DNA of 55,113 nt, from positions 145,407-200,519 of the forward strand of contig JALHNB010000002.1 in the NCBI GenBank assembly GCA_022843745.1, written 5' to 3'. Below the pieces are notes generated by a model. The model saw only the letters and a list, made by a program, of their open reading frames with translations. It searched no databases and was not told where the DNA came from. Position numbers and translations under genes: made by a program. This DNA is from Anaerolineae bacterium. GTDB taxonomy: Bacteria > Chloroflexota > Anaerolineae > Aggregatilineales > Phototrophicaceae. This document shows, piece after piece, positions 2,904 through 55,113 of this stretch; position 1 is the first letter of the stretch; every line of letters starts with the position of its first letter.

Positions 2904-3734
2904 TCAAAATTTCAATGTTTTGAACTGCTCGGTCTGGTCTTGAATCGCGCGTTCCGTCGGCAGGCGTTCCATGCTCGACGCGCCGAAGAAGCCGACAATG
3001 CCTTTGGTGTGCTTGAAAATGTAATCGACATCTTCCGGCTCGGCGATAGGGCCGCCGTGACACAGAACCAGAATATCCGGGTTCACGGACTTTGCCGCGT
3101 CGTACATGGCCTGGATTCGCACTGCACATTCTTCAAGCGTGACTGTCGTTTGTGCGCCAATCGAGCCTTTAGTCGTCAGCCCCAGATGCGGCACGAGAAT
3201 ATCCGCCCCGGCCTGCGCCATTTTGATGGCATCTTCCGGGTTGAACACGTAAGGGCTGGTCAGCATATCCATTTCATGTGCAGTGTGGATCATCTCCACT
3301 TCGAGATCGTAGCTCATGCCTGTTTCTTCCAGATTTTGCCGATACACGCCGTCGATTAAGCCCACAGTCGGGAAATTTTGAACGCCGTCGAAGCCCATTT
3401 CCTTAAGCTGCTTGAGAAAAACAGGCATCAGGCGAAACGGATCGGTCCCGCATACGCCCGCCATCACCATCGTGTTTTTGACAATCGGCAGCACCTCAGC
3501 CGCCATATCGACGACAATCGCGTTGGCATCGCCGTAGGGCATCATGCCCGCCATGCTGCCGCGCCCAGCCATGCGGTAGCGCCCGGAATTGTAGATGATG
3601 ATGAGGTCAGCCCCACCGCGTTCGATAAATTTGGCGGAAATGCCCGTGCCTGCGCCCGCGCCAATAATGGGCTTATTTTCTGCCACCTGTTTGCGCAGCC
3701 GCGCCAGAGCATCGCTGCGAGAAATAAAAGGCAT
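2904..3734 (-). CDS. TIM-barrel protein of the PEP-hydrolase family (Tm-1 C-terminal-domain homologue)
   Basis: A 276-residue protein opening [16 protein letters not shown], followed by [20 protein letters not shown], a [11 protein letters not shown] segment and [11 protein letters not shown]. This is the signature of the family annotated as phosphoenolpyruvate hydrolase-like TIM barrels. The gene starts six bases after the Tm-1-like gene, with GGTGAGG ahead of the ATG. In the tomato Tm-1 resistance protein the equivalents of these two genes form a single polypeptide, so the two products here probably act together. The enzyme reaction is not established, and the family name should be treated as provisional. 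Confidence 0.88.
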
Positions 3735-3740
3735 GTTGCC

Positions 3741-4972: not shown

Positions 4973-5095
4973 TAAGTCTTTAGTCGATAGTCGTTAGCTA
5001 GTAGCCGAACTCGTAAGTGCTGTTTTGATCTTTTAAAGCTCAAAAAACTCATAAAGTCTTTGGCTAGAGGCTAAAAGCTAACGACTATCGACCTA
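4973..5095. repeat. palindromic TTAGTC-type intergenic repeat, copy 1
   Basis: A 17-base arm at 4983-4999 (GTCGATAGTCGTTAGCT) recurs as an exact inverted copy at 5076-5092. Both arms belong to an AGTCTTTAG/TTAGTCG-rich sequence. The unit fills the gap between the TIR-UDG gene, whose TAG stop is at 5093-5095, and the Tm-1-like gene. Related copies lie near 18679-18722 and 35886-36049. It may fold as a transcript 3' end or be a small non-autonomous element. Confidence 0.7.
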
Positions 5096-6187
5096 AATAA
5101 ACAGCTTTAATTTTTCAAAATCCTTTCGCAGCTTTTCCTTCTCACTGGGCTTATGAAGTGCGACAGCGGGATGATACAGTGGAATGACGTGAATCTCGCC
5201 ATAATGGATTTTCGTTTTGATGAGCTTGCCATGAAGCTGCGTGATCGTGCCGCCTTTTTCCGGCAAATCCAGCTTTTTCAGCATATAATTCATCGCGAAG
5301 CGACCCAATGTCGCGATCACAGCAGGCCGGATGATGTCCACGATGCGATCCATAAAGGGCGTGTAGAAAGTCAGTTCTTCCGGTGTGGGTTCACGTTGTT
5401 CTGGCGGACGATCCAGCAAAATATTGGTGATAAACACGTCTTCGCGCTCGAGGTTGATTCCGCGCAGCATTTCGTCCAACACGTCGCCGGATGGTCCACA
5501 AAATGGCCTGCCCGTTTCGGTTTCGGTTTTACCCGGTGCTTCACCGATAAACAAAAGATTCGCGTCGGCGTTGCCCTCGCCCAATACCGGAAAAAGCCGA
5601 TTGTCGACGCGGAATTTATAGAGTGGCGAAGTTGTGGCATTCACCAGATCGTTGCGCACAGCCTTCAGCGCAGTTTCTTTGAGCAGCACGGCTTCTGATG
5701 CCGCTTGCATCTTGAATGATGGCTGGCTGGGGATAGCATCCTTAATCGTATCGGCTAATTTTTTGACATCATGCGAAAAACCCTGGCGCGAGAGGGCGAT
5801 GGCGTTGCGTCGCGCAAATAGCTTAATATCTTCGGGCAGATCAGCGGGTGAAGGCATTTTTGCCTGACCGACCAGCACGGGAATCACCAGTTTGCTCTGC
5901 TTGAGTGCGCTGGCGATCTCAATACGCACAAAATCGTCCCACTGATCGAGGCGGCGGTTGCCACTGCTATCCTGAGCCGCTAACCACTGTGGGCCGATCA
6001 TGGCGATAAAAACATCGCAGCCCGCGACGGCATCTTCCAGCATTTGAACAAAATCTGCGCCGGGTTTGATGCTGTCCACGTCCATGAAAATATCTTCCGG
6101 CTTAAAATGCTGCGCTAGATGTTCATAGAGGCGATCCACATAAGCTTCGGTATCCTGTCGCCGGTAATTGATAAAAATGCGGCTCAT
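5093..6187 (-). CDS. TIR domain fused to family-4-like uracil-DNA glycosylase lacking its Fe-S cysteines
   Basis: A 364-residue protein. Residues 1-145 are a TIR domain: MSRIFINYRRQD start, FMDVDSIKPGADF, and the DDFVRIE helix with E90 at the usual NADase glutamate position. Residues about 175-364 match family 4 uracil-DNA glycosylases: LGEGNADANLLFIGEAPG, E222, GRPFCGPSG, the RPPEQREPTPEE loop and the HPA motif at H339-A341. All four cluster cysteines are replaced: A184 and S187 in the N-terminal CxxC, D259 before RPP, and Y275 before TPFM. Only two Cys exist, C57 and C230, neither at a ligand site. ATG 6187 is preferred over 6202 because GGAG lies upstream of it. I infer a nucleic-acid-sensing TIR effector, possibly antiphage. 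This is not demonstrated. Confidence 0.88.
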   Translation of the reverse strand: MSRIFINYRRQDTEAYVDRLYEHLAQHFKPEDIFMDVDSIKPGADFVQMLEDAVAGCDVFIAMIGPQWLAAQDSSGNRRLDQWDDFVRIEIASALKQSKLVIPVLVGQAKMPSPADLPEDIKLFARRNAIALSRQGFSHDVKKLADTIKDAIPSQPSFKMQAASEAVLLKETALKAVRNDLVNATTSPLYKFRVDNRLFPVLGEGNADANLLFIGEAPGKTETETGRPFCGPSGDVLDEMLRGINLEREDVFITNILLDRPPEQREPTPEELTFYTPFMDRIVDIIRPAVIATLGRFAMNYMLKKLDLPEKGGTITQLHGKLIKTKIHYGEIHVIPLYHPAVALHKPSEKEKLRKDFEKLKLFI

Positions 6188-6297
6188 AACTGCGCGCTCC
6201 ATGTGAGAGGGTTCAATAAAAATATTTTACACGGAATATAGTTGATTATTCACGAAATGTAGACGACTAAATTACGGAATATCAGCGATTAAGTCTT

Positions 6298-19645: not shown

Positions 19646-21196
19646 TTACTGAAGGCAGGCATTGAGATTTGCACGATCAGAATCGGTGAAATTGCTACTC
19701 TCTATCCATCCAGGCATATTGCTGCCAGATGAGAGTTGGATCTTATACCAGTCGTTATCGTCAGATACAGCCAAAACGATGACCTCAGAACCAACTGGAA
19801 CTGTATACAACCGACTAGAAGTGATGCGCTCATTTTCGTAAACACGAACTTGAGTAACCCCAAAAGCCGTTATGACTGCTTTACATCCCAGGGCTGATGG
19901 AACAGTATCTGTTGTCGATGTTGACATATTCAAATTTTGAGTGTTCCCTGCTAAGGGCCATTCCACCACACACGTTGTCTGACCTGCTGCACACACCGCA
20001 ACTGTATTCCTATCCCGCAATACCAGTACCGTTCGATGCTGATTGGCCGTGGAGTCATACCAGAAGACATCGGCATCAGCGACATTTTGCGTCAAGGGCA
20101 TCACCCCGCTTTGACATTCCAGCGGCGCGGGATTCTGACTGCCATTGCGTATCAATCGGAAACAAGCCGCGCTATTTAATACTTTAACATCCCCTAAAAT
20201 CGAATCACCGCCAAAACTGGAATATCCCATCAGCGGAAATGGACGATTTTGTCCACCTATTTCCACCTGAAATATTAATTCTGCCAATGAGAGTGAATCT
20301 CCTACATCTGGCATATACAGTGTCAGGCTGTCTTCGTCGCGGAAAATCGTCAGCGTGATTGTAGGGCCGCTGACTGTGGGTGTTGTGGGTGATGCGGGGA
20401 TGGAAGTGTTCGTCGGTGGCGCTGGCGTGTTTGTAGGAATGCTCGGCTGTGGGGTATCGCTCGGTAAAGTTGTTATCGTTGGTGTCTCGGTTACGGGCTG
20501 CGGTATTTCGGTATTCGTCGGTGGCACAGACGTATTTGTCGCAGTTTCGGTTGGTGATTGGGGCGTGTCGGTGGGATTTTGAACAAGTGCTAAAGAGGTA
20601 GCTGTATATACCCCTAGCTTATAAAAGAAGTCGTTGCGCCATTCTTCAGAGAGTAAGGCGAGGAATGCCAAAATAATGGTTAGCACGGTTACAATAACCG
20701 CACTAACTTTACCCCACGCAATATGGCCCAATATACCTTTGCCTCTGATCGCATGTAAATCCGTGACCAGCTTTTTCATGTCGTCGTTATAATCACTATC
20801 CCTTATCTGGCGGGCATTTTTGTAGGCTAAGGGGTTGAGATTAGAGGGAAGCAGTGATGCTCCCGGCATAGAACCGCCTTTAACTAGGACGGGGATCAGT
20901 TCGGCGTGACGCAATCCCATCTCAACTTCAATTCGCACAAAATCCGTTGGATCGTCCAACCGTCGGTTGCCGTTTGCGTCCTTAGTATCTAACCACCCAG
21001 GGCCGATGATGACCAGCATGACATCGCTAGAAATCAACTCGCTTTCAATAACTGCTCGGAAATCCTTCCCGACAGGGATCTTGTTGACATCTTTAAAGAC
21101 GTTTTTTTCGCCAAATGCTCGAACGAGATCATCGTAAATTCGTGCAGTAATGTCGGCACTATCGCTTCTGCGGTACGAGATGAAAATACGCGGCAT
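19646..21196 (-). CDS. transmembrane TIR protein with Thr/Pro linker and C-terminal SH3-like domain
   Basis: A 516-residue protein in four parts. Residues 1-150 are a TIR domain (MPRIFISYRRSDSADI, DVNKIPVGKDF, DFVRIE with E90 at the NADase glutamate position). Residues about 162-182 are one membrane helix, and 207-278 a Thr/Pro-rich linker. Residues about 280-430 are an unrecognised beta-rich domain with two Cys pairs. Residues about 434-510 are an SH3-like domain (TQVRVYENE, then WYKIQL, MPGWIESSNF). With a cytoplasmic TIR the SH3 part would lie outside the membrane. TIR residues 1-100 closely resemble those of the TIR-UDG protein. A role as an envelope-sensing TIR effector is inferred. Confidence 0.85.
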   Translation of the reverse strand: MPRIFISYRRSDSADITARIYDDLVRAFGEKNVFKDVNKIPVGKDFRAVIESELISSDVMLVIIGPGWLDTKDANGNRRLDDPTDFVRIEVEMGLRHAELIPVLVKGGSMPGASLLPSNLNPLAYKNARQIRDSDYNDDMKKLVTDLHAIRGKGILGHIAWGKVSAVIVTVLTIILAFLALLSEEWRNDFFYKLGVYTATSLALVQNPTDTPQSPTETATNTSVPPTNTEIPQPVTETPTITTLPSDTPQPSIPTNTPAPPTNTSIPASPTTPTVSGPTITLTIFRDEDSLTLYMPDVGDSLSLAELIFQVEIGGQNRPFPLMGYSSFGGDSILGDVKVLNSAACFRLIRNGSQNPAPLECQSGVMPLTQNVADADVFWYDSTANQHRTVLVLRDRNTVAVCAAGQTTCVVEWPLAGNTQNLNMSTSTTDTVPSALGCKAVITAFGVTQVRVYENERITSSRLYTVPVGSEVIVLAVSDDNDWYKIQLSSGSNMPGWIESSNFTDSDRANLNACLQ

Positions 21197-36534: not shown

Positions 36535-37332
36535 CTATCTCGCGCCACACGCCTGCAAACAGGCCTGCATATGCCCGCGTGACTCGGCAGCGATGATGCC
36601 GCAGCGCTCGACGGGATAGTCCTTCGCGCCGATAATTTCCAGGTCAACCGGGCCAGTGTAGCCGTTTTCGTGCAAGACGCGCACGTAACCGACCAGATCA
36701 ATGTCGCCGCGTCCATTAGCTTGATCTTCTGGCTTGCCCGGCCCTTGCTGGCGGCCTTTGCAATCGCGGATATGGACGTGCTTCACGCGCGAGATCACCG
36801 CCGCAATCGCCTCGACTGGATTTTCGTTGGCACGGTGAATGTGCGAGGGATCCATGTCGATGCCGAACGAGGGAACTGTGATCGCTTCCATCGCTCGCAG
36901 GGTGGTCGGGGTGTTATAAATCGCTGAGTTGACATGCGCTTTTACGCACAGGGTCACGCCCGCTTTTCCGGCCATCTCCGCGAGGTTGTTCAGCGATTCG
37001 AGTGTGCGCTGAAAATTATCTTCATCGTCAGGTCTGCCACCCGGCCCGCAGTTGATAATCGGAATGCCGATTTCCGCTGCTGCCTGGATCGCTGCCTCCA
37101 TTATTTGTAATTCCTGTGATGGCTGTTCCATCGCCAGCAGTTCCAGCCCATAATCACCCGCTAATTTCTTGATCTGCGGCGCGATTTCCTGCCACTTGCT
37201 CAGGACAAGGTGCTGGCTCATGCCGTCGATGGCCGAAATTTCGATGCCATCGTAGCCGGACTGCGCGATATATTTGAAGGCGGTTTCCATATCGTAGCCG
37301 CCGAATAACACTGAATTTGCGCCTAGTTTCAT
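36535..37332 (-). CDS. sugar phosphate isomerase/epimerase-type TIM-barrel protein (copy 2)
   Basis: A 265-residue xylose-isomerase-like TIM barrel. It starts MKLGANSVLFGGYDMETAFK; metal-site residues appear in LLAMEQPSQE, TLCVKAHVNS, FGIDMDPSHIHR, VKHVHIRDCKG and VDLEIIGAKD. ATG 37332 is preferred because AAAGGA sits six bases upstream. It differs clearly from copy 1 at 35000-35872, so the two probably act on different intermediates. It is downstream of a Gfo/Idh dehydrogenase, with a GC-rich hairpin region between them. Confidence 0.85.
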   Translation of the reverse strand: MKLGANSVLFGGYDMETAFKYIAQSGYDGIEISAIDGMSQHLVLSKWQEIAPQIKKLAGDYGLELLAMEQPSQELQIMEAAIQAAAEIGIPIINCGPGGRPDDEDNFQRTLESLNNLAEMAGKAGVTLCVKAHVNSAIYNTPTTLRAMEAITVPSFGIDMDPSHIHRANENPVEAIAAVISRVKHVHIRDCKGRQQGPGKPEDQANGRGDIDLVGYVRVLHENGYTGPVDLEIIGAKDYPVERCGIIAAESRGHMQACLQACGAR

Positions 37333-37414
37333 CATCAATCCTTTTTGTCTAAATCTTGCTTCCCAACCTTTCATAAGGCTAGGTCTTTATTTTGTTCCTG
37401 CGACCTCTCTTGTT

Positions 37415-37472: not shown

Positions 37473-38465
37473 TTATTTTACGTAAACTACCGTCTCGGTA
37501 TTCAGCGACTCAATCGCTGCTGCCAACACTTTTTGTGCCGCGAGTCCTTCCGCGCCAGAGCCGTCGATTTCTTCCGGCTTCGCGCCGCTGTCGATCTGCT
37601 CCAGAAATCTGTGAATGCGGTTGCGAAACGTATCGTCAAAATTGCCGAATCCGCCAAACAGCGGGTCGCTGTAAACCGTTTTTTCCAGATTTCCGGCGGG
37701 GTAGAGTGTCAATTCGCGCCACATATCTTCCAGCACGAAGCGCCCCTTGAGTCCGGCGACCTCGCAGCGTTCCATCGGATGCCCGCGCTCGATGTCATAG
37801 CTGCCTGTCAGTGTGCCAACGACGCCATTCTTGAAGCGCATGTTGAAGGTCGCCGTTGACCAGATGACCCGTCCTGGCGCTTTTGTGCCGAAGCATGTCA
37901 CGGCCTCGATGTCGCCGCAGAAATAGCGCATCACATCAACCGTATGCGGATGCAGCGCCTTGAGGTGAAAATACGGCGATGTTTCGCGCGGGTTCTTGAT
38001 CCACATGCTCATGTTAATGAATAACTGATGCCCGATGCGCCCCTCGTCAATCCATTTTTTCGCCAGCCGCGCCGCCGGGGTGAAGCGGTGATTCAGGTTA
38101 ATGCCGTAGCATAGGCCTTTTTCACGGGCAGTCGTGACCATTTCCTCAGCTTCTTCTATTTCGTTGGAGATCGGTTTTTCGCCCAGAACGTGACACCCAG
38201 CGTTAAGCGCCTGCATCGTTGGCTCATAATGTTCGCTGCCATATTCATAGCCGCCCGTCGCGACGCTGCACATATCCGGCTTGAGCGTATCAAGCATTTT
38301 GCGCACATCATAAAATGCCGGGACACCATATTTTGCCGCTGCCGCGTCCGCGCGTTCCGGGATAATGTCGCACACGCCGACCAGTTCAGCCAGCGGGTCG
38401 GCTTTATGAATGCTGGCGTGGAGATTACCGATAACTCCCAGGCCGATCACACAAACGCGCACCAT
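37473..38465 (-). CDS. Gfo/Idh/MocA-family dehydrogenase (copy 1)
   Basis: A 330-residue NAD(P)-dependent sugar oxidoreductase. It has Rossmann start VRVCVIGLGVIGNLHAS, catalytic-region Lys in VLGEKPISNEIEEAEEM, then GINLNHRFTPAARLA and ALHPHTVDVMRYF. It is a close paralogue of the protein at 40676-41665; long blocks are shared, including GEKPISNEIE and FKNGVVG-x-LTGSYD. The family oxidises sugar hydroxyls, often at C3, in inositol, amino-sugar or glycoside metabolism. It starts one base after the sulfotransferase-like gene ends. Confidence 0.9.
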   Translation of the reverse strand: MVRVCVIGLGVIGNLHASIHKADPLAELVGVCDIIPERADAAAAKYGVPAFYDVRKMLDTLKPDMCSVATGGYEYGSEHYEPTMQALNAGCHVLGEKPISNEIEEAEEMVTTAREKGLCYGINLNHRFTPAARLAKKWIDEGRIGHQLFINMSMWIKNPRETSPYFHLKALHPHTVDVMRYFCGDIEAVTCFGTKAPGRVIWSTATFNMRFKNGVVGTLTGSYDIERGHPMERCEVAGLKGRFVLEDMWRELTLYPAGNLEKTVYSDPLFGGFGNFDDTFRNRIHRFLEQIDSGAKPEEIDGSGAEGLAAQKVLAAAIESLNTETVVYVK

Positions 38466-38466
38466 T

Positions 38467-39201
38467 TTATGCCTCCCTTTCGGGTATTTCGTAGCCGTAT
38501 TCAGTCATCGCCGGGGCGAAAAAGTCGAAATAATTCACCCCGTCATCGAGTTTCCAGCGCTCAATCGAGTCGCGCCGGACGATAATCCGCGCCAGTTTGA
38601 TGCCGAGGAAATCTTCGAGTTTTTGTAATGTTTCTTCCTGATTCAACACGAAATCTTCAAAGCGCACTTCCAGCCAGTTGGCAGGCTTGGGCGTGGCTTT
38701 CACCAGATCATATTGATATTTCCACGAGATGGCGCGTCGCAGTCGCACATCATCGGTTTGGGGATAGGGGATGCCGAAATCCGTCAGATCATCGGTGATG
38801 TGTTGCCCCAGGATGCAGTCGCGTGGGTTGCGAATCCAGAAAACGTATTTGATTTCGGGGAACATCCGCACAATCCAGGGATAAGCCAGCGTTGTTTCGG
38901 GGATTTTCCAGCCTTTATGCTCGGATTTGTCCGCCAGGACGGATTTGAGATACACGCTGATGAGGTTTTCAAATTCTGCCGGGATGGGCATGGTATGAAG
39001 CTGGCTGAAATCCCAGGACAGGTCGCCTTTCCATTCGACGTGGCTGGCGAGAATCCGGCAGGCCGCGTACATTGATTCCGGCGGGACAAGATCGCCGGAT
39101 GCGTTGAGCAGGCTGCCCATATAGACGTTGCTGGTGTAGAGCGTGTGAGAGATGGCGCGGGTGCCGGAATGTCCCCGCCCGATAATCGTAATCATGGACA
39201 T
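38467..39201 (-). CDS. sulfotransferase-like P-loop protein
   Basis: A 244-residue protein with an N-terminal phosphate-binding loop ITIIGRGHSGTRAISHTL and a second conserved segment YVFWIRNPRDCILGQHI. These match the 5' and 3' PAPS-binding motifs of sulfotransferase-like proteins. It is diverged from the typical family member at 10986-11735. A sulfate-adding enzyme is unexpected inside a catabolic locus, so it may have a different nucleotide or act in signalling. ATG 39201 is used, and a second Met lies two codons in. Confidence 0.7.
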   Translation of the reverse strand: MSMITIIGRGHSGTRAISHTLYTSNVYMGSLLNASGDLVPPESMYAACRILASHVEWKGDLSWDFSQLHTMPIPAEFENLISVYLKSVLADKSEHKGWKIPETTLAYPWIVRMFPEIKYVFWIRNPRDCILGQHITDDLTDFGIPYPQTDDVRLRRAISWKYQYDLVKATPKPANWLEVRFEDFVLNQEETLQKLEDFLGIKLARIIVRRDSIERWKLDDGVNYFDFFAPAMTEYGYEIPEREA

Positions 39202-39217: not shown

Positions 39218-40663
39218 TCATGTAGTGACCCGGCGGACTCGCACCGCCATGTAGGGTTTTGAGGGTAGTTCTACCTGAAATTTTCCGGTTTCCGATGGTG
39301 GCAGCGGCGTGATCGTCATATCCCAGGTGTCGATCACCTCCGTCTGATATTGACCATCCGGCAGGTTAAAAATCGCTGCGCCGGGCTGGTGAATGCCAAA
39401 GTATCCCAGATAATACTGCCCCGGCACACCCGCCCATTTAAACGAATGGATTCCGGTTTCGAGGGGTTCCAAGCCTTGTGGTGGCGTTTCTTCGAGAATA
39501 CGCTGATAAAACGCGATGCGCTCAGAACTCTGACCGTGCAGGACTCCGCCTTTTGACCACCACAGAATATCCTGCGGGTGGAGATAAGTTTCGCCGTGTC
39601 CGGCATATGCGCCGTGTATCGTGCTTTCCCAGAAGCGGCGTACCATCTCCTGCGGTGTGATATTGCCCCAGCGATCCGGGATATTGCCTTCGTAGCAGCA
39701 CTCGTCGATGATAATCGGCTTTTTATACTGCTTATGCCAATCGCGAATCGGTTCGAGATTCATGCTCACGCCGACGATCTGGATGCTGGCATGTGTCACC
39801 CAGGGCTTGTTGTAGTCGTAAAAGGTGCGCCAATTGTGAACCGAGCGCAAATGCTGAGACGGGTCGTTTTCCTGCACGATGCGAAAAAATCGATCCCAAT
39901 CCGCCTCGGACTTCGCTTTCATCAAATCCCACTCGTTCGCCATTGACCACCACACGTTGCGATAGGCTGCCAACCGAGCGACGATGTAGCGCAGATAGCG
40001 GTCATCAACTTCGGCATCCATCGTGGCGAATCCCCAGCGATCATAAGGATGAAAGAGGATCAGATCGGCTTCAATGCCCAACGCCAGCAAATCGGCTACC
40101 CGCTGCTCGAAATGCTGAAAAAACGCCGGATTGAATCGTTCAAAATCCCATGCGCCGTTTTCCAGCTTCTCAAACGGATAATATTCCGGCTCGTTGGCAT
40201 TAAACGTGTAGTGTTTTGGGAAAACGCACATGCGCATTTTGTTGAATGGCGCATTTTTGAGCGTTTCCAGCGTTTGTTCTTCCAGCGCGTCACCCTGATG
40301 CGTCCAGACGTAGCAGGTTGTGCCGACCTGCCAGTAGGGTGTGCCGTCGGCATACGCCAGATGATGCATATTATGGACACGCACCGGGCCGTGATTATCA
40401 GCGGATGGCGTGACACAGGTGAATTTTCCGGGAAGGTTATCCAACTGCGATGCACTGCTGTATGTCAGATATTCCCAGTCACCTGGCACGTCCGGCATAA
40501 AGCGCAGGCGATAGATGCCAGCACCATCATAGAAACCCGGCACGTCGATCTCGCGATGTTGAAAGCGAAAACGCGCACCGAAAGCGACTTCTATAAATGG
40601 ATTGCCATCTTGGGGGCCTTCAAGCGCAAACTCGAAAAGCCCCCATTGCTCAATCACTGCCAC
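39218..40663 (-). CDS. DUF5060/DUF4038-type glycoside-hydrolase-like protein
   Basis: A 481-residue protein in three parts. An N-terminal beta domain (about 1-95) carries [20 protein letters not shown] and [18 protein letters not shown] central TIM barrel (about 100-385) carries [36 protein letters not shown] with a likely acid/base Glu, and [12 protein letters not shown] with a likely nucleophile Glu. A short C-terminal beta domain follows. This is the arrangement of DUF5060/apiosidase-like glycosidases from plant-glycan loci. No signal peptide, so it probably works on imported oligosaccharides. Exact linkage specificity is unknown. Confidence 0.82.
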
Positions 40664-40675
40664 AGCGAACTCCTA

Positions 40676-41665
40676 CTACAGCGTGATGACCTGTCCGCTG
40701 TTCCAGGATTCAATCGCGGCTTCGATCACCAACTGTGCCTTGAGCGCTTCTTCACCAGAGCCGTCGATTTCTTCCGGCTTGACCTGCTGAATATTCTGCT
40801 CGACCCAGCGCCCGATGCGGCTGCCAAATGTCTCGTTAAAGCCCATCATGCCGCCGAGGTAATCGTAAGTTTCGGTTTCGCGCGAAAATCGCGGATAAAA
40901 TTCCAGGTGTTCGCAGGCATCGCGCAGGACGAAACGCGCATCTGAGCCGACGACTTCCAGCGTTTCCAGGCCATAGCTGCCGCCCGCATCATAGCTGCCG
41001 GTCAGATGACCAACAACGCCGTTTTTGAACAGCATATTGACCTGCACATTCGACCAGATTTTGCGGCCTTTGCCCTTCTTGAAGAACGCCTGCACTTTTT
41101 CAACGTCACCCGCGAAATAGCGCATCACGTCAATCGAGTGCGGGTGCAGGGCGCGCATGTGGAAATGTTCGGCGCTCTCGTTCGGGTTGTTGATCCACAT
41201 CGTCATATTGATGATATTGAGTTCGCCCAGTCGTCCCTGATCGACCCATTCTTTCGCCCGCAGCGCTGCCGGGGTGAAGCGGTGATTCAGATTGACACCG
41301 TAGCGCAGATTTTTCGACTTCGCCAGCGCGACCATTTCTTTGGCTTTTTCGATCTCGTTGGAAATCGGTTTCTCGCCCAGCACAGGCAGCCCTGCGTTGA
41401 GCAGCTCAATCGTCGGCGTATAGTGGTCGCCGCCGTTTTCCTTGCCTGCTGTTGCCATACTCACCGCGTCGATCTGGATGCCGCTGGCAAGCATATCCTT
41501 GACCGAATAAAAACCCTGACAGCCGTATTTTTCAGCGGCCTTGTCCGATTTTTCCTGGATGATGTCGCAAACGGCGACGATCTCAACATCTGAACGTTTC
41601 GAATAAACTCCGGCGTGGATGTTGCCGATATTCCCAACGCCGACAATTGCTACTTTTAAAGACAT
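40676..41665 (-). CDS. Gfo/Idh/MocA-family dehydrogenase (copy 2)
   Basis: A 329-residue paralogue of the 37473-38465 protein. It has VAIVGVGNIGNIHAGVYSK, VLGEKPISNEIEKAKEM, GVNLNHRFTPAALRA and ALHPHSIDVMRYFAGD. Extensive identity along the whole length points to duplication within or near this locus. An NAD(P)-dependent sugar oxidation is expected. It lies 12 bases upstream of the DUF5060 glycosidase gene and downstream of the GH127-like gene, with a strong palindrome in between. Confidence 0.9.
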   Translation of the reverse strand: MSLKVAIVGVGNIGNIHAGVYSKRSDVEIVAVCDIIQEKSDKAAEKYGCQGFYSVKDMLASGIQIDAVSMATAGKENGGDHYTPTIELLNAGLPVLGEKPISNEIEKAKEMVALAKSKNLRYGVNLNHRFTPAALRAKEWVDQGRLGELNIINMTMWINNPNESAEHFHMRALHPHSIDVMRYFAGDVEKVQAFFKKGKGRKIWSNVQVNMLFKNGVVGHLTGSYDAGGSYGLETLEVVGSDARFVLRDACEHLEFYPRFSRETETYDYLGGMMGFNETFGSRIGRWVEQNIQQVKPEEIDGSGEEALKAQLVIEAAIESWNSGQVITL

Positions 41666-41763: not shown

Positions 41764-43611
41764 TTATTCTGATACTCGTCCGCTGCGCAGCGGATTTTCG
41801 CGGCTGAACGGCGTTTTCTCGATATTGTGGACGACCAGCCACGAACGATAGGGTGAGCCGCCTTCACCCGCGCTGCCGAAATAGCACAGCCGCAGTTTGC
41901 GCCCGTCCACAGCCGTAAATTCCATTAACAAAATGGGCTTCATCCAGCCGTTCCACTCTGTGATTTTCCCTTGCAAGCCTTTTGCATCCAGCGCGGGAAT
42001 ATCGTCCGGGTCAAAATCGTTGAAACGGCGATCATAGGTCAGCAAAATCGGGCCGTAGTAAATAGACGTTTTGCCTTCGCACTCCTGCTCACCGACCCAA
42101 TAATGCAGTGACATATCGAGGTCAAGTTCGATAATGTCTCCCGGCTGCCACTCGCGTGATAATCGAACGTACTGACCTGCTTCTGCCCACTTGGTCACTT
42201 CGCCATTGATACTTGGTGGCTGAATATTTTCTGACCAGTAGGGGATGCGCAGCTTAAGCGCAAAGGAAGCCGCTTGCGAGGGTTCGACGATGATGCGAAT
42301 GTGACCGTTGCGAGGATAATCCGTTTCGTGCGTAAGCGTAACCGCGATACCTGAAGCAAGTTGAGTGCGGATTCGGCCTTGCCCATACCAGTTAAGATAC
42401 AAGCCGTCCTCATTTTCCATCAGTGCCCAATCGGAGATCATGCCGAAGCCGCGTGCGCCGTTGACCGAGCAGCAGTTCAATTCCGGCGTACCTTCGCGTG
42501 ATTGAAATACGATTTCGTGTGCGCTGGCTTTCCTCACCCCATCCATCGGCGTGTTATACGTCACCCATCGCCCTGAAACCGTATGGAGGCCAATTACAGA
42601 ATTGATTGTCGAAAGTTCCAGTTCGTCGGCGACGACAGAATTGCTCGTTAATCGCAGCATTTCGACGCTCATGGCGATCCAGGCAATCGTGCAGCAGGTT
42701 TCAATCGCGCCGGGGTGATAGGGATTGCCCTGCGCCTGTTCGCCAGACGTGAAGCCGCCGTTGTTATGGCGATCCAGCTTGACGATGCTCCACCACGTGC
42801 GCTCAAATGCCTCTCGATATTGAGTATTCCCGATGATGTTGTAAAGCTCCGCAAGCGCCATAATTGGGTGTAGGCTTTCCCAACGCGGCTTAGGCGTTTG
42901 AAAAAATTCCTGTCCCGCCAGCGGTGCGTTCAGATAATCACCTGCTAGAAATTTTCCATCGCCATCGACTGCCGCGAACTCATCGGCGATTTGCAGCGCC
43001 AGATCAAGATAGCGCTGCTCGTTCGTCTGCTTATACAGCAGGCAAAGTGTGTGAATTGGCGCGAGATTCATCTCTGTCCAGCCTGTATCGACCAACCGAG
43101 GCGATTTCTCGCCCAGAAATTGATCGCAGAATAGATCGGCAATACGTTTCGCACATTCCAGCGCTTTTTCGTCTTGTGTGTCTTCATACCACAGCAGTAG
43201 GCCAAGCATGATGTGATAGTGACCCCACGCATCCCAGGTGCCATCTTTCGCCTGTGGTGCTTTTCCTGTGAGGCTATACTCCTGCGGCCAGGGGCCAAGA
43301 TAACCGTTATCAGCTTGCAGCGTGACCAATTCGCGCACAAATTCCTGCACGTAGGCCTTGAGTTCGGCATCGCCTGTGAGCCGCAAAACCTGGGTCGCCG
43401 CCGTCAGATATTTTCCGGCGAACTCGCCTGACCAGGGAACCATATCGCGGTAGGGCTGGCGATCTCGATCTCGAAAAATTTCCAGCATTCCCGGATTTGC
43501 GGATGGCGCGATTTTTAACCACTGCTCACTCACGCCACGCAGATAAGCATCCAGATAGCCCTGAAAAGCATATTCAACATTTGATGGTCGGCTGCTTGGG
43601 TGAGTGAGCAT
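41764..43611 (-). CDS. GH127-like beta-L-arabinofuranosidase family protein
   Basis: A 615-residue (alpha/alpha)6-barrel protein of the DUF1680/GH127 family. E304 and C306 lie in GAIETCCTIAW and C380-C381 in ELNCCSVNGARG. These correspond to the Glu/Cys zinc site and the Cys nucleophile of the Bifidobacterium enzyme HypBA1 (E338, C340, C417, C418 as I recall). WDAWGHYHIMLGLLL and ADNGYLGPWPQEY are also typical. It has no signal peptide, so it acts on imported sugars. The family includes arabinofuranosidases and enzymes for other L-sugars, so specificity is open. Confidence 0.87.
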   Translation of the reverse strand: MLTHPSSRPSNVEYAFQGYLDAYLRGVSEQWLKIAPSANPGMLEIFRDRDRQPYRDMVPWSGEFAGKYLTAATQVLRLTGDAELKAYVQEFVRELVTLQADNGYLGPWPQEYSLTGKAPQAKDGTWDAWGHYHIMLGLLLWYEDTQDEKALECAKRIADLFCDQFLGEKSPRLVDTGWTEMNLAPIHTLCLLYKQTNEQRYLDLALQIADEFAAVDGDGKFLAGDYLNAPLAGQEFFQTPKPRWESLHPIMALAELYNIIGNTQYREAFERTWWSIVKLDRHNNGGFTSGEQAQGNPYHPGAIETCCTIAWIAMSVEMLRLTSNSVVADELELSTINSVIGLHTVSGRWVTYNTPMDGVRKASAHEIVFQSREGTPELNCCSVNGARGFGMISDWALMENEDGLYLNWYGQGRIRTQLASGIAVTLTHETDYPRNGHIRIIVEPSQAASFALKLRIPYWSENIQPPSINGEVTKWAEAGQYVRLSREWQPGDIIELDLDMSLHYWVGEQECEGKTSIYYGPILLTYDRRFNDFDPDDIPALDAKGLQGKITEWNGWMKPILLMEFTAVDGRKLRLCYFGSAGEGGSPYRSWLVVHNIEKTPFSRENPLRSGRVSE

Positions 43612-43616
43612 GTGTT

Positions 43617-45035
43617 TTACCGTGATTTCGCTTGTAATTTGGCTGCCTGATTCGGATCGCCGATGTGCAGCGTGTCATACGCCTGCTGTGAGGTCTTGAA
43701 CGGGCCGACACCTTCCTTGCCATGCCAGTCACCCTGATGATAAATCGGGTTCGGTAGGCCAGTCTCGTTTTCGCGTTTGGCGATCCATTCCAGCATTTGC
43801 GTGCGCAGCATGGCGACGACATCCGGGCGGCTTGCGGCAATATTGTTGTTTTCGTCCGGGTCATCAATCAGATTGTAAAGCTCGATTTCCGGTTTGAAGT
43901 GGAAATCCGGCTCCAGCGCGATCATCAGTTTCCAGTGGGGTGTGCGCCAGCCGTGTTTGCGCATCCACGTGCATTCAGTAATATAAAATTCGCTGTCGCG
44001 CGAGGTCACTTCGCCACGTGCCAGCGGCATCAGGCTTTGCCCATCAAAGCGCTTGTCCGAAGGCCATTTAATGTCCTTGTCGCGGATGTCCAACAATTCC
44101 ATGATCGTCGGAGTCAGGTCTTTGTGCTGGCTGTAACCCTTCACACGTTTTCCGGCGGGAACTTTGCCGGGGAAGTGGATAATCAGCGGTACGGACAGCA
44201 CGGTATCATACATGCCGTGATGATCGAACCAGCATTCGTGGTCGTAGAGCGTTTCGCCGTGATCGCCGTTGATGATGACAAGCGTGTTTTCGAGCAGGTT
44301 ACGTGCTTCGAGCGCCGTGAAAAGAGTCTGGATGCAGGCATCCATGTAGGCAATCGCGCCGTCGTATTGGGCGATGACGTAATCCTTGTCGCTGATCCCC
44401 GGCGGCATCCAACTGGCGAAAAAATCGCGGAACGGCTTAAAGCTCATGACAGGATCCATCGACTTATTTTTCTTGTCGGTTTCCTTGCCGTGATAAAACA
44501 TGCGCTCGTAGGGTTCGGGCGGCAGATAAGGCGCGTGGGGATCCATATGGCGCAGGAATAAGAAGAACGGGTCTTTTTTCTTGGATAAGCGCTCCAATTC
44601 AGGAATCGCCACGTCATTCAGTTTTTGAGCTTTGGGGCTGCGGCCTTCGTTCCAACTTCCCCAGGCGGGATAGTCGATATATTTATCGAATCCGCGTGAG
44701 GCCGGGTTGCCTGTAAAACCGACGCAGGTGGTGTTATAGCCAAAATCCTTGAGAATTTCCGGCAGCGTTTTGACTTCAGGACGCAGCGGCCCTTTGTGGC
44801 GGAGCGCGACGACCTGTGTGCCAAAAGTGTCCATCCCGGTCAGCATCGAGGAATAAGCGCTGGTGGTGGGGATGTGGGCGCTGAAGTTTTTTTCGAATAC
44901 CGTTCCGCCTTGTGCGAATTTGTCAATGTTCGGCGTTGTCAGGCGGTGATAACCATACAGACTCATATGGTCGGCGCGTAGGGAATCAATCCCAAACAGC
45001 ACCACATTCGGCATGTTTTTACGTTTCGATGGCAT
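43617..45035 (-). CDS. sulfatase-like alkaline-phosphatase-superfamily protein with Thr at the catalytic position
   Basis: A 472-residue protein with the sulfatase fold: NVVLFGIDSLRADHMSLYGY (metal Asp17), PNIDKFAQGGTVFEKNF, FLRHMDPHAPYLPP, VIINGDHGETLYDHE and SVPLIIHFPG. The CxPSR formylglycine motif is absent: the segment reads IPTTSAYSSMLTG, with T57 in the Cys position and Y61 in the Arg position. Superfamily phosphotransferases use Thr as nucleophile, so it may be a phosphodiesterase or phosphatase rather than a sulfatase. There is no signal peptide, so it is probably cytoplasmic. It is located between the creatininase and GH127-like genes. Confidence 0.85.
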   Translation of the reverse strand: MPSKRKNMPNVVLFGIDSLRADHMSLYGYHRLTTPNIDKFAQGGTVFEKNFSAHIPTTSAYSSMLTGMDTFGTQVVALRHKGPLRPEVKTLPEILKDFGYNTTCVGFTGNPASRGFDKYIDYPAWGSWNEGRSPKAQKLNDVAIPELERLSKKKDPFFLFLRHMDPHAPYLPPEPYERMFYHGKETDKKNKSMDPVMSFKPFRDFFASWMPPGISDKDYVIAQYDGAIAYMDACIQTLFTALEARNLLENTLVIINGDHGETLYDHECWFDHHGMYDTVLSVPLIIHFPGKVPAGKRVKGYSQHKDLTPTIMELLDIRDKDIKWPSDKRFDGQSLMPLARGEVTSRDSEFYITECTWMRKHGWRTPHWKLMIALEPDFHFKPEIELYNLIDDPDENNNIAASRPDVVAMLRTQMLEWIAKRENETGLPNPIYHQGDWHGKEGVGPFKTSQQAYDTLHIGDPNQAAKLQAKSR

Positions 45036-45118: not shown

Positions 45119-45817
45119 TCAGCCACGCACATCAGCAAGCAGTTGGCGAATTTTTGGCAGCGCTTGTTCAACGAAAACGGTGAGCATCCGGCCTCCATCG
45201 CTGGCATTGGCGGTGCGCGGGTCGTCGCCCCATACGCCATCTTCATCCAGCGTGGCGACGCGATCCGCTGGCAGCAGCGAGAGGTCAACCGTGTCGGGAT
45301 AGAGATAGGTCATGTACGACGTTTCGCCATAAGCGGCATGATTAGCGTCAAAAAATCCTTCGTGCGGCTCGGCATCCGTCAGCGCCCAGACAGCTATTTT
45401 GGGATTGGCGGCGGCGAAAGCGGCGGCAGTTTCTTTGATCGCTTCCACATGCACCTTGCCATAATGTCCGGTGACGAGGATGATGACCTTAAATTCTTCG
45501 TCGGCAAGCTGTTCCAGAAATTCGGTGCATAAGGCTTTCACCGTTTCGATTTTATGCTCAAGTGTGTGGTGGAAACCTTTGAAGGGTTTGATCGTATCCG
45601 TGCCGACGTAAACAGGTGGCAGCACGACACCGCCCGTTTCTTGTGCCAGCGCTTCGCAGAGTTTCCGAGCTTTTAATCCATCCAGCCCAATCGGGTTGTG
45701 ATAGCTGTGCCATTCCAGCGCACCCCAGGGAAGGTAGGCGATTGGCGTGGCGCTGCGGATCGATTCGATCTGTGCTGGGCGCAGCAATTCATACGCCCCC
45801 CATTGAATATCCGACAT
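45119..45817 (-). CDS. creatininase-family amidohydrolase
   Basis: A 232-residue protein of normal family length. Metal-ligand motifs are PWGALEWHSYHNPIGLD (Glu, His, Asp), VTGHYGKVHVEAI (His) and a Glu in HAAYGETSYM. Family members open cyclic amides or lactams. In sugar loci they are also found as probable lactonase-like or amide hydrolases, though the substrate here is unknown. Its ATG follows directly after the TAA of the dioxygenase gene, with GGAGG inside the end of that gene, so the two are coupled. Confidence 0.87.
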   Translation of the reverse strand: MSDIQWGAYELLRPAQIESIRSATPIAYLPWGALEWHSYHNPIGLDGLKARKLCEALAQETGGVVLPPVYVGTDTIKPFKGFHHTLEHKIETVKALCTEFLEQLADEEFKVIILVTGHYGKVHVEAIKETAAAFAAANPKIAVWALTDAEPHEGFFDANHAAYGETSYMTYLYPDTVDLSLLPADRVATLDEDGVWGDDPRTANASDGGRMLTVFVEQALPKIRQLLADVRG

Positions 45818-46636
45818 TTAAGCCTCCGCTGTGACGTAAGGCTTGCTCACGTGGTAAATCAGCGGATTTAAAACATCGTTTTCCAGGACATCACCAATTT
45901 TGAGTTTTGCGAATTCATCGGGTGGCAGGATATTTTGCTGACCATTGAAGGTGCTGCCGTCGGGCATATAGGCGCAGGTCATGGCGCGGCGGAAACCGGG
46001 TGTCATATTCGCAAGTGCGCCATGTGCGGTCAGTCCATTATGGAAGGAGCAGGAACCTGCTTTCATCGGGGCAGAAACGGCCTTCATTTTGCCCCATTCG
46101 GTATAGTGCTTGAACAGGTCGCCAATATTTTTGCCGATGCCGACATTATCCCATGTAGCCGTTTTGTAGGAGCCAGGTATGAAGTAGAGGCAGCCGTTTT
46201 CCAGCGTGGCATCATCCAGTGCGACCCAGATGCTAATGGACTGGCGTGATGAGAATGACCAGTAGGGGTTATCGAGATGCCAGCCGGTGGGATTGCCCCA
46301 GGGCTGCTTGATGAGCGCCTGATCGTGCCAGATACGGATACCGTCAACGCCCGCTAACTGGGTCGCCATTTTGCCCAAACGCGGGTCGAGCATCAGCTTG
46401 CGCATTCCTTCGTGGTCATTCCACAGGTTGATACGCTGGATAAACACCTTGTCGTAATACGAGTCGCCTTCACGCATACGCCCATCCGCCAATTTGCGAT
46501 CTGCCCGTTGAGCGACGGCTTCATCCACCGACTTTCGCCAGAAATCAAGCTCTTCCGGCGTTAGAAAATTTTCGATGACGATGTAACCATTTTCCTGGTA
46601 AGCGCTGATTTGCTCAGGGGTTAAATCTGAATTCAT
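45818..46636 (-). CDS. phytanoyl-CoA dioxygenase (PhyH)-family Fe(II)/2-oxoglutarate oxygenase
   Basis: A 272-residue protein with the facial triad HxD in TGWHLDNPYWSF and a distal His in FHNGLTAHGALANM. A 2-oxoglutarate-binding Arg lies in FRRAMTCAYM. ENGYIVIENFLTPEELDFWR is the standard N terminus. It would hydroxylate a small molecule in the cytoplasm. GGAG lies seven bases before the ATG. It is the first gene after an intergenic region carrying a LacI-type palindrome and two direct repeats, so it probably opens the inducible second half of the locus. Confidence 0.88.
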   Translation of the reverse strand: MNSDLTPEQISAYQENGYIVIENFLTPEELDFWRKSVDEAVAQRADRKLADGRMREGDSYYDKVFIQRINLWNDHEGMRKLMLDPRLGKMATQLAGVDGIRIWHDQALIKQPWGNPTGWHLDNPYWSFSSRQSISIWVALDDATLENGCLYFIPGSYKTATWDNVGIGKNIGDLFKHYTEWGKMKAVSAPMKAGSCSFHNGLTAHGALANMTPGFRRAMTCAYMPDGSTFNGQQNILPPDEFAKLKIGDVLENDVLNPLIYHVSKPYVTAEA

Positions 46637-52927: not shown

Positions 52928-55113
52928 CTAGCCGAGGTCAATGATGCTGCCGTTGACACGCGCTTCGCATGAATAGCAAGCTTCGATAAAGAGTTGTGCT
53001 TCTCCCAACAGCCGCTTGGCCGCATCGGGATCCGCCCATGTTGGTGGATTTTCGTGACGATCAAACAGGAATTGCGCGAATTTCCCGCCCGCGAAGGGAT
53101 CGAAAAACAGCTTTGTATCATAGAACTGAGTGCGAAATTCTTCAACAATCCGGTTCGGATCGTCCGAGAGCGCCAAAAAGCGTGTGCGTACCAATGCACG
53201 AGCTGCCATCAGCATCGCGAGATAGGCATCTGCATCGGCTTTCTCATACTTGCCTTCATCCAGCGCGATGAGTCCATCAAAGTGGGTCGATTCAGCCTTT
53301 GTGATTTCCAATGAGAACAGGGATACGACCTCACCTGCGCACTCGCCAACGCCAATGTCGCCCAGTGAATATTCGCGTGTATCGCCCCAATCGGTGTAAA
53401 ACGAGGGATCGACTTCGTAGGCTGGCACTTTCGTGAAAGGCTCCAGCATGACCTTGATTTCTTTCTTGCCCAGGCGTGTCACCCAATCCTGGAAGCTCTC
53501 GCTGTCAGAACGTTCAGTCGCATACCGATTGGTCAATGACTCCAGAACTTCCGGTACACGCTTGGAAGGAACAGCACCCATCGCCAGCCCGAAGCTGCCC
53601 GCGTTTTCCTTCCATTTGCCGCCCAGTACCAACTGGAAGTGGGGAACAAGGTAATTCCCGGAACGGCGGCTGTTTCCGAAGAAGCCAATATCGGCAACAT
53701 GGTGCTGACCGCAGGAATTGAAGCAGCCACTAACCTTGATTTTCAGGTCTTTAATAGCGTCGGGAAGGCTATCAATTTTCTCGGTAAGCTGTTCGCGCAG
53801 TTCGCCCGTTAGCCCGCGTGAGGAAGCGATACCCAGCTTGCAGGTATCCGTTCCGGGGCAGGTCGTAATATCGACAATTGTGTCAATACCTGGTATCGCA
53901 AGCCCGATTGGTTTCAGCAGGTTGTAAATCTCCGGCAGGTCGGCCTCGGAAACCCAGCGCAGCAGCAGATTTTGCTCGACAGTCGTGCGGACGGTATCGC
54001 CAGCATATTTACGGGCAATATCCGATAGGGCGAACATTTGCGAGGAGGTCATATCACCCAGCGGGAGGTTGATATAGACGGCGACGTAACCTTCCTGGCG
54101 CTGCTTATAAATATTGGTTTTGTACCACGCTTCAAAGCCTTCGGGTTTGACCTGTCCATTCAGGGACACAGGCAGCTTGGGCGGGGTTTCATGATAGTTC
54201 GGTACATCATCGACATAGGCTGTCCAGCGCTCATCGGGAGGCAGAATTTCGCGTTCTTCGTAAACCAGACGGCGGAATTCTTCGATACCAAGCTGCTCCA
54301 CAAGGAATTTCATGCGGGCGCGGTTACGGTTCTTCTTCTCGCCCAAACGTGCAAATACACGCGCAATCGCCTGTGCCAGTGGGAGAATTTCTTCCTCGGT
54401 GACGAAGCTGCTCAACAGTTTGGCCTGTTGGGGGATGGCGCCCAAGCCGCCGCCGACGAACACCGCAAACCCGCGCTTGATCTCGCCATCAACTTCTTTG
54501 GTACGTGCCAGCAGTCCCAGGTCGTGCATGTTCACGAGGCCGCAAGCATGTTGTTCGCAGCCCGAAAATGCCGTTTTGAATTTCCGTCCGAAATCCTGTG
54601 TGTCGCCATGACCGAGCAGGAAATAGGCCAACGCTTTGGCATAAGGGGTCACATCAAATGACTCGTCATGGCAAACGCCGGACAGGGGGCAAGCGGTGAC
54701 GTTGCGTACCGAGTTGCCGCAGGCTTCCTGAGAGGTAATACCCACCGCCGCCAACCGCCGCATCAGGTCCGGCATATCATCAATATGCACGAAATGAAGC
54801 TGGAAATCCTGACGGGTGGTGACGTGCAGAATGCCGTCCGAATATTCGTCTGCGACTTCAGCCAGAACTTCCATCTGCTGCGGGGTTACGCCGCCGAATG
54901 GTATCTTGATACGTAACATACCGGGCGCATCCCAATAGGTGTTTGGACCTTTGGTCAGGTCGCCTGCCGGGTACTTGAGAGTCTGTGTTTTTGTACCATC
55001 ATAACGCTGACCATTATCGTAGCGTTGACCATATATCCCCCAACGCAGGCGAGTTTCGGCGAATACTTTTTCGTCGAGTTTGTTCTGGCGTCTCAATTCC
55101 ATCTGGCCGGCGA
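52928..55113 (-). CDS. sirohaem nitrite/sulfite reductase with C-terminal HEPN-like helical domain (5' end cut)
   Basis: The frame is open to the window edge. An ATG at 55102 exists but has no ribosome site, and homologues seem to begin earlier, so the start is probably missing. From that ATG, 724 residues are visible. Two ferredoxin-like/sirohaem half-repeats are present. The second has C415-x5-C421 (TTCPGTDTCKLG) and C460-x3-C464 (SGCFNSCGQHH), the [4Fe-4S]-sirohaem ligands. The first half also carries Cys pairs (C138/C144, C182/C187). The last ~130 residues are helical and HEPN-like (DADAYLAMLMAARALVRTRF). It reduces sulfite or nitrite by six electrons; which one is not decided by the sequence. 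Confidence 0.9.
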   Translation of the reverse strand, partial: AGQMELRRQNKLDEKVFAETRLRWGIYGQRYDNGQRYDGTKTQTLKYPAGDLTKGPNTYWDAPGMLRIKIPFGGVTPQQMEVLAEVADEYSDGILHVTTRQDFQLHFVHIDDMPDLMRRLAAVGITSQEACGNSVRNVTACPLSGVCHDESFDVTPYAKALAYFLLGHGDTQDFGRKFKTAFSGCEQHACGLVNMHDLGLLARTKEVDGEIKRGFAVFVGGGLGAIPQQAKLLSSFVTEEEILPLAQAIARVFARLGEKKNRNRARMKFLVEQLGIEEFRRLVYEEREILPPDERWTAYVDDVPNYHETPPKLPVSLNGQVKPEGFEAWYKTNIYKQRQEGYVAVYINLPLGDMTSSQMFALSDIARKYAGDTVRTTVEQNLLLRWVSEADLPEIYNLLKPIGLAIPGIDTIVDITTCPGTDTCKLGIASSRGLTGELREQLTEKIDSLPDAIKDLKIKVSGCFNSCGQHHVADIGFFGNSRRSGNYLVPHFQLVLGGKWKENAGSFGLAMGAVPSKRVPEVLESLTNRYATERSDSESFQDWVTRLGKKEIKVMLEPFTKVPAYEVDPSFYTDWGDTREYSLGDIGVGECAGEVVSLFSLEITKAESTHFDGLIALDEGKYEKADADAYLAMLMAARALVRTRFLALSDDPNRIVEEFRTQFYDTKLFFDPFAGGKFAQFLFDRHENPPTWADPDAAKRLLGEAQLFIEACYSCEARVNGSIIDLG

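Follow-up and report, generated by a model that had tools for sequence, protein, structure and literature searches.

The sulfatase-fold gene and its product

The gene described here lies in a window of 55,113 nucleotides, which is the whole stretch of DNA that was analysed and to which all positions refer. It occupies a single open frame on the minus strand that runs from an ATG at 45035 to 43617 and encodes a protein of 472 residues, hereafter P0001:

43617..45035, minus strand: Thr-type sulfatase-fold hydrolase, 472 aa (ORF; PF00884, 181.9 bits; AF2 pLDDT 88.8, pTM 0.91)

The first-pass annotation gave this interval correctly and did not state the strand. Frame 1 of the plus strand over 43617-45035 contains stops and is not open, and an overlapping plus-strand ORF of 254 aa in another frame (43797-44561) is taken for an antisense shadow. 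P0001 belongs to the PF00884 (Sulfatase) superfamily both by profile, since its match spans residues 9-317 with a score well over the Pfam cut-off of 25, and by fold, with structural Z-scores of up to 36.0. A second match, to PF01663 over residues 224-331 (43.2 bits), exceeds its cut-off of 23 but falls far under the PF00884 score, and an NCBIfam scan of P0001 returned no model above its cut-off. The N-terminus, MPSKRKN, is short and basic and directly precedes the first strand. Upstream of the ATG, the reading frame stays open for only 10 more codons (482 aa), so that no room is left for a signal peptide; judging from these features, P0001 is most likely cytosolic.

Conservation of the active site

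The family was aligned in 95 rows, comprising 94 distinct ORFs that score at least 780 bits and the trimmed query, the window protein being counted twice. These rows were drawn from 80 loci and from further genome searches that included a class-level sample, and one copy that is split in two ORFs of lower score (L060) was excluded. Invariant columns amount to 123 of 472, which argues that the family is a working enzyme. Codons 57-61 read TTSAY at 44867..44853, with exact numbering, and the following residues are the most informative for the active site:

44982..44987, minus strand: D17, proposed metal ligand, and S18, which replaces the second sulfatase Asp (both 95/95 rows)
44853..44867, minus strand: T57-T58-S59-A60-Y61, where sulfatases carry Cys-x-Pro-Ser-Arg; T57 is the proposed nucleophile (T57, T58 and Y61 95/95)
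44715..44717, minus strand: F107, at the position of sulfatase Lys113 (95/95; by alignment)
44535..44537, minus strand: H167, equivalent of His211, retained (95/95)
44259..44264, minus strand: D258-H259, proposed metal ligands (95/95)
44232..44234, minus strand: C268, invariant Cys outside a CxPxR context (95/95)
44217..44222, minus strand: H272-H273, with H272 at the Lys375 position, the least certain column (95/95; by alignment)
43971..43973, minus strand: C355, invariant Cys outside a CxPxR context (95/95)

H163 and D271 are likewise present in all 95 rows. The presence of T57 and Y61 in every row rules out that the motif is a local peculiarity or stems from an error in sequencing. The first-pass annotation had placed T57 at the formylglycine (FGly) position and Y61 at the Arg position in a protein of retained overall length, and the alignment bears this out. 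Its further statement that the metal ligands are kept holds for D17, D258 and H259 and fails for the second Asp of the Asp-Asp pair, which is Ser18 throughout the family. The two invariant Cys residues, C268 and C355, were absent from that annotation.

As set out in the 2016 sulfatase classification (PMC5066984), FGly-sulfatases carry Cys or Ser at residue 51 together with Arg55 (99%), Lys113 (94%), His211 (99%), Asp317 (99%) and Lys375 (96%). The P0001 family retains H167 for His211 and D258 for Asp317, and it has T57 at the nucleophile place, Y61 for Arg55 and F107 for Lys113, all of them in 95/95 rows; the F107 column aligns with G-K of solved sulfatases. The Lys375 column holds H272 in every row but shifts by one in some Cys-type rows. 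In a wider 71-row sample, Arg occupies the FGly-stabilising position in all 22 Cys-type rows and is absent from all 48 Thr- or Ser-type rows besides the query. His259 is not diagnostic, since 22/22 Cys-type rows of that sample also have His in this column and His is listed as a frequent residue at the Asn318 position of sulfatases (PMC5066984).

The CxPxR motif is found in 0/95 family rows, and none of the Cys residues of P0001 (C104, C234, C268 and C355) lies within such a motif, which leaves no alternative active-site Cys of this kind; a string of the [CS]x[PA]xR type occurs somewhere in 11/95 rows. P0001 is thus almost certainly not an FGly-sulfatase. The absence of CxPxR likewise suggests that the protein would not be matured by a formylglycine-generating enzyme, as had been proposed, and the tracking of Arg with Cys in the 71-row sample agrees with the earlier suggestion that it may not remove sulfate. 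The warning that a 'sulfatase' label would mislead has a published precedent, given that the PF00884 profile has produced many false annotations of this type from Thr-bearing proteins and that Thr is found in 30/59 Pfam PF00884 seed sequences (PMC5066984), a prevalence on which the first-pass annotation is silent.

Distribution and phylogeny

A scan limited to one genome per species yielded 506 relatives, the best 80 loci of which were kept. The proteins at these 80 loci are 69-81% identical to P0001 over the best segment and come from nine named phyla, namely Chloroflexota (27), Candidatus Poribacteria (24), Armatimonadota (12), Latescibacterota (5), Deinococcota (4), Gemmatimonadota (3) and, with one locus each, Abditibacteriota, Zixiibacteriota and Pseudomonadota, in addition to two loci without an assigned phylum. 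A copy is also carried by Devosia geojensis BD-c194 (L063).

The phylogeny of Thr-type members was approached with a quick 71-row tree, from which the motif columns were omitted and which was rooted at its midpoint, with SH-aLRT support. The PTTSAY family forms a group of 24 rows (support 100) beside a PTHPSF protein, its sister (96), and both fall within a wider group (39 rows, support 98) to which nine Cys-type PCLPSR-like proteins also belong. At least three changes among Thr, Cys and Ser, in either direction, are needed on this tree. The Devosia copy groups with a Chloroflexi row (98) and phyla are intermixed within the family, which suggests transfer of the hydrolase between phyla.

Several related proteins deserve attention in their own right. 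The Cys-type PCLPSR-like rows (L128, L137, L138, L140, L145, L149, L150, L151 and L163) have both Cys and Arg and no Lys at the Lys113 place, and they possibly represent an intermediate between sulfatase and phosphoesterase sites. On an Armatimonadetes contig (L040:4655-7527, plus strand), tandem Thr-type genes with the motifs PTHPSF and PTMPSF lie downstream of a member of the hydrolase family, and tandem pairs of the family itself (L157 and L161, with identities to P0001 of about 70% and 60-62%) are found in several genomes of the bacterial family f43. The genome to which the window belongs contains four PF00884 genes (five matches), two of them with Thr by alignment, one with Thr by eye and one with Cys. 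In the same genome (G000), the FGE-sulfatase domain PF03781 is matched 19 times, and only one PF00884 gene is seen with Cys.

Gene neighbourhood

The genes of the window that bear on the neighbourhood of the hydrolase are the following, where counts refer to orthologs of at least 50% identity among all stop-to-stop ORFs at the best 80 of 506 relatives, a selection that favours closer relatives:

40676..41665, minus strand: Gfo/Idh/MocA dehydrogenase (Gfo1), cassette (Pfam; near the hydrolase in 32/80 loci, all on the same strand)
38467..39201, minus strand: sulfotransferase-fold protein, cassette (PF13469, 57.7 bits; AF2 pLDDT 91.5; 25/80 loci)
37473..38465, minus strand: second Gfo/Idh/MocA dehydrogenase (Gfo2), cassette (Pfam; 23/80 loci)
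36535..37374, minus strand: xylose-isomerase-like TIM barrel (AP_endonuc_2), cassette (Pfam; 33/80 loci)
45818..46636, minus strand: PhyH-family oxygenase (Pfam; 16/80 loci, among them 14/24 Poribacteria loci), adjoining the hydrolase in many Poribacteria
45119..45817, minus strand: creatininase-family protein, directly upstream of the hydrolase in the window (Pfam; only 1/80 loci)
2904..3734, minus strand: PEP_hydrolase-like protein, 40 kb from the hydrolase in the window (Pfam; 15/80 loci)

Orthologs of the four cassette genes lie on the same strand as the neighbouring hydrolase, with median identities of 69-75%; one or more of them is found in 49/80 loci and at least two in 36/80, where 16/80 loci have less than 3 kb of downstream DNA. 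The usual layout in Poribacteria consists of PhyH (14/24 loci), hydrolase and a PEP_hydrolase-like gene (15/24), the last of which directly follows the hydrolase in many loci. Neither the cassette nor the Poribacteria-type set is found at 16/80 loci. Moreover, an upstream gene on the other strand falls, in 10/80 loci, into a cluster of which the one Pfam-scanned member is SBP_bac_5; this count is based on an ORF set in which some real genes were hidden by long antisense ORFs. The transporter genes around this gene appear by eye to be of the Opp type.

By sequence, the isomerase-like cassette protein has no solved relative at 1e-10 and Gfo1 none at 1e-20, and the solved relatives of the PhyH protein are general Fe/2-oxoglutarate oxygenases, with SnoK as the best match. 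At 1e-120, Gfo1 is found in one of 121 genomes of a phylum-level sample, namely that of the window. No published description of the cassette or of the hydrolase family was found in the open-licence literature, to which most subscription papers do not belong. Thr-type PF00884 proteins are already known as a class, and the part for which that literature gave no description is the setting of this family in a same-strand cassette that is shared across phyla.

Deriving the substrate from other neighbours in the window (GH127, apiosidase-like, mandelate-racemase-like and ABC transporter genes) was attempted and dropped, as none of these genes has an ortholog that reaches 50% identity in the flanks of the 80 loci (0/80). 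Among these, the GH127-like gene (41764-43611, minus strand) has as its best NCBIfam match aceric acid hydrolase, at 141 bits far below the cut-off of 950, and the apiosidase-like gene (39218-40663, minus strand) lies two genes away from it; together they possibly serve the use of rhamnogalacturonan-II-like sugars. At 2904-4952 (minus strand), the PEP_hydrolase-like gene adjoins a UPF0261 gene, and a nitrite/sulfite reductase with two NIR_SIR domains is encoded at 52928-55102 (minus strand), on the upstream side of the hydrolase gene at a distance of about 8 kb. Elsewhere in the window, a gene at 5093-6202 (minus strand) encodes a TIR domain (PF13676, 55.0 bits) fused to a uracil-DNA glycosylase superfamily domain (PF03167, 104.1 bits), for which PADLOC gives no more than a faint ThsB-like match, and a second TIR protein is encoded at 19646-21196 (minus strand), with a borderline C-terminal SH3_3 match (27.4 bits versus a cut-off of 27).

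Proposed function and mechanism

With a probability of roughly 0.55, P0001 is a member of the alkaline-phosphatase superfamily that has a sulfatase fold and acts in the cytosol as a metal-dependent phosphoesterase, most likely a phosphodiesterase. The components of this reading differ in strength. Thr57 is very probably the nucleophile, and phosphorus rather than sulfur is probably the centre of the ester. That a diester is the main substrate is only slightly favoured, and this choice over a monoester substrate or a transferase reaction is made by analogy only. The first-pass annotation had named Thr as the nucleophile of phosphodiesterase-type members of the superfamily, in agreement with descriptions of LtaS, EptA, MCR and YejM, in which Thr is the nucleophile or a key residue of the metal site (PMC7576196), and of the ENPPs (PMC11677397). 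In PorX, of the same superfamily, the T271V substitution is reported to abolish phosphodiesterase activity (PMC11320123).

In the proposed mechanism, a divalent metal would be held by Asp17, Asp258, His259 and Thr57, and the metal-bound alkoxide of Thr57 would attack the phosphorus with departure of one alcohol, followed by hydrolysis of a phospho-threonine intermediate. His167 and His272/His273 are candidates for acid-base or second-metal residues. The enzyme would act inside the cell on an imported ester that contains a sugar or polyol, and the product, either this sugar or polyol or its phosphate, could be oxidised by the two Gfo/Idh dehydrogenases and rearranged by the xylose-isomerase-like enzyme.

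The same Thr nucleophile and metal could instead act on a phosphate monoester or transfer a phospho group to an acceptor, a considerably less probable reading that nevertheless ranks first among the alternatives. The Thr-type kin do include the transferases LtaS, EptA and MCR and the phosphatase YejM (PMC7576196), and sugar-phosphate chemistry would suit the isomerase-like and dehydrogenase neighbours; however, LtaS, EptA and MCR are membrane proteins, whereas P0001 looks soluble, with fold matches that span residues 6-447.

The sulfotransferase-fold neighbour and the remaining alternatives

Several points stand against a phosphoesterase. Firstly, both by sequence and by fold, sulfatases and phosphonate monoester hydrolases of the FGly type are the best solved matches among those listed. 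Secondly, the PCLPSR group, which lies nearby in the tree, keeps Cys and Arg, so that close kin of P0001 may be FGly enzymes. Thirdly, the cassette contains a sulfotransferase-fold gene that points to sulfur chemistry, and this linkage, odd for a phosphoesterase in a catabolic-looking cassette, is the main evidence against such an enzyme. The sulfotransferase-fold protein has 244 residues, and its model aligns with human tyrosylprotein sulfotransferase-1 (TPST1) with a VIA Z-score of 16.5 (rmsd 3.5, 211 aligned residues); by sequence, its only match among solved structures is TPST2, with an E-value of 0.039 or worse.

In 396 class-level genomes, an ortholog of this protein is found in 52, the hydrolase family in at least 77 (a lower bound, as at most four candidates per genome were scored) and both in 49, the two samples being taken as the same set of 396 genomes. 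The two genes lie within 5 kb of each other in 44/49 of these genomes, and in the remaining five they are located on different contigs (four) or 47 kb apart (one). The sulfotransferase ortholog occurs without a counted hydrolase in 3/52 genomes, and 28/77 class-level genomes and 22/24 Poribacteria loci have the hydrolase but no sulfotransferase ortholog. Although kinship among the genomes inflates this association, the proximity of the two genes is a direct observation. A role of the hydrolase in recycling PAP for the sulfotransferase was considered and dropped, since the hydrolase is often present without the sulfotransferase.

These data bear on a minority reading, a formylglycine-independent sulfuryl-ester enzyme, in which Thr57 would accept a sulfuryl group and pass it to water or to an acceptor alongside the sulfotransferase-fold neighbour. 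The presence of the hydrolase in 49 of the 52 sulfotransferase-bearing genomes, the short distances and the fold of the neighbour speak for such an enzyme, and a choline sulfatase with an unmodified Cys is reported to turn over still, with a kcat of 0.27 per s (PMC6189696). Against it stand the loss of Arg55, Lys113 and apparently Lys375 and the many genomes and Poribacteria loci in which the hydrolase has no such partner, and we consider it unlikely. A broader and slightly more doubtful idea is that both proteins catalyse steps of one undescribed cross-phylum pathway, in which a sugar-like metabolite would be sulfated for activation or protection and the Thr-based, FGly-independent enzyme would cleave or transfer a sulfuryl or phospho ester.

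Two further explanations are weaker than these. The loss of the FGly site would suit a pseudoenzyme or binding protein that retains the fold alone; yet pseudoenzymes usually drift at active-site positions, and the 95 rows show no variation at D17, T57, H167, D258, H259 and many positions in loops, which makes this explanation improbable. Least credible of all is an ordinary FGly-sulfatase with its modified Cys elsewhere, since C268 and C355, although invariant, lie outside any CxPxR motif and, in the secondary structure of the AF2 model, follow strands 251-257 and 350-354, respectively, whereas the nucleophile helix comprises residues 57-66.

Implications

Given the share of Thr among the Pfam seed sequences, the numbers of 'sulfatases' counted in environmental genomes, from which the use of sulfated polysaccharides is inferred, are probably too high. 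The hydrolase family is a good test case, as it is highly conserved, often lies in the same cassette and has a copy in Devosia geojensis BD-c194, in which genetic work could identify the substrate. Should a member of this kind handle sulfate esters outside FGly chemistry, it would represent a new way to be a sulfatase.

Comparison with known systems

The AlphaFold2 model of P0001 is, in its global fold, closest to sulfatases and phosphonate monoester hydrolases among the matches listed by Foldseek and VIA-align, with VIA-align Z-scores of 36.0 (6hr5), 35.1 (5fql), 35.0 (4uph) and 33.6 (2w8s), and these matches cover residues 6-447. A shared fold does not establish function. The best of them, 6hr5, is an FGly sulfatase module (SulfAtlas S1, PF00884; rmsd 3.0, 351 aligned residues), to which P0001 is similar in having equivalents of His211 and Asp317. 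P0001 departs from the S1 sulfatases in carrying Thr57 where they have Cys/Ser, Tyr61 instead of Arg, Phe107 instead of Lys113, Ser18 in place of the second Asp and apparently His272 at the Lys375 position. The phosphonate monoester hydrolases and phosphodiesterases of the S1_0 group (4uph, 2w8s and 2vqr) likewise resemble it in fold (4uph, rmsd 2.9, 383 aligned residues). Their substrates are described as phosphodiesters and phosphonate monoesters (PMC5066984), and they use formylglycine as nucleophile, whereas P0001 has no Cys at this place and no CxPxR.

In the ENPP-type phosphodiesterases (PF01663), the described ligands of metal 1 are a pair of Asp residues, a His and the nucleophile, which is usually Thr (PMC11677397). 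T57, D17, D258 and H259 of P0001 match this set by alignment only. The second Zn of ENPPs has one Asp and two His as its ligands, and H163, H167, D271, H272 and H273 of P0001 would be candidates for such a site. None of the 50 structural matches listed is an ENPP, which excludes nothing.

LtaS, EptA, MCR and YejM have a Thr at a metal site, as proposed for P0001, but they are membrane-anchored envelope enzymes, whereas P0001 looks soluble and cytosolic and belongs to a catabolic-looking cassette. The NCBIfam models of CptA, EptA, YejM, LtaS and kindred proteins give P0001 scores between 20.4 and 44.2 bits, whereas their cut-offs lie between 404 and 970. A membrane-spanning N-terminal domain of the LtaS/EptA type appears to be missing from its 472 residues, as the fold matches span residues 6-447 and the basic N-terminus comprises only a few residues. 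Other Thr-type PF00884 proteins, with motifs such as PTxPSF/Y or WTxPSH, are about 30-39% identical to P0001 and, among the rows listed, lack a Cys in the C268 column, but they share the Thr at the nucleophile place, the absence of Arg and the retention of His167 and Asp258-His259; the genome of the window has one such protein (L002, WTIPSH).

For the proposed physiology, the agrocinopine system offers a parallel, although its hydrolase, AccF, presumably belongs to another protein family than P0001. In that system, AccA, which is similar to dipeptide-binding proteins, imports the sugar phosphodiester agrocinopine and AccF cleaves it in the cell (PMC4526662). It is thus a precedent for a dipeptide-type binding protein that feeds an intracellular phosphodiesterase, an arrangement comparable to that of the hydrolase and the cluster with an SBP_bac_5 member at 10/80 loci.
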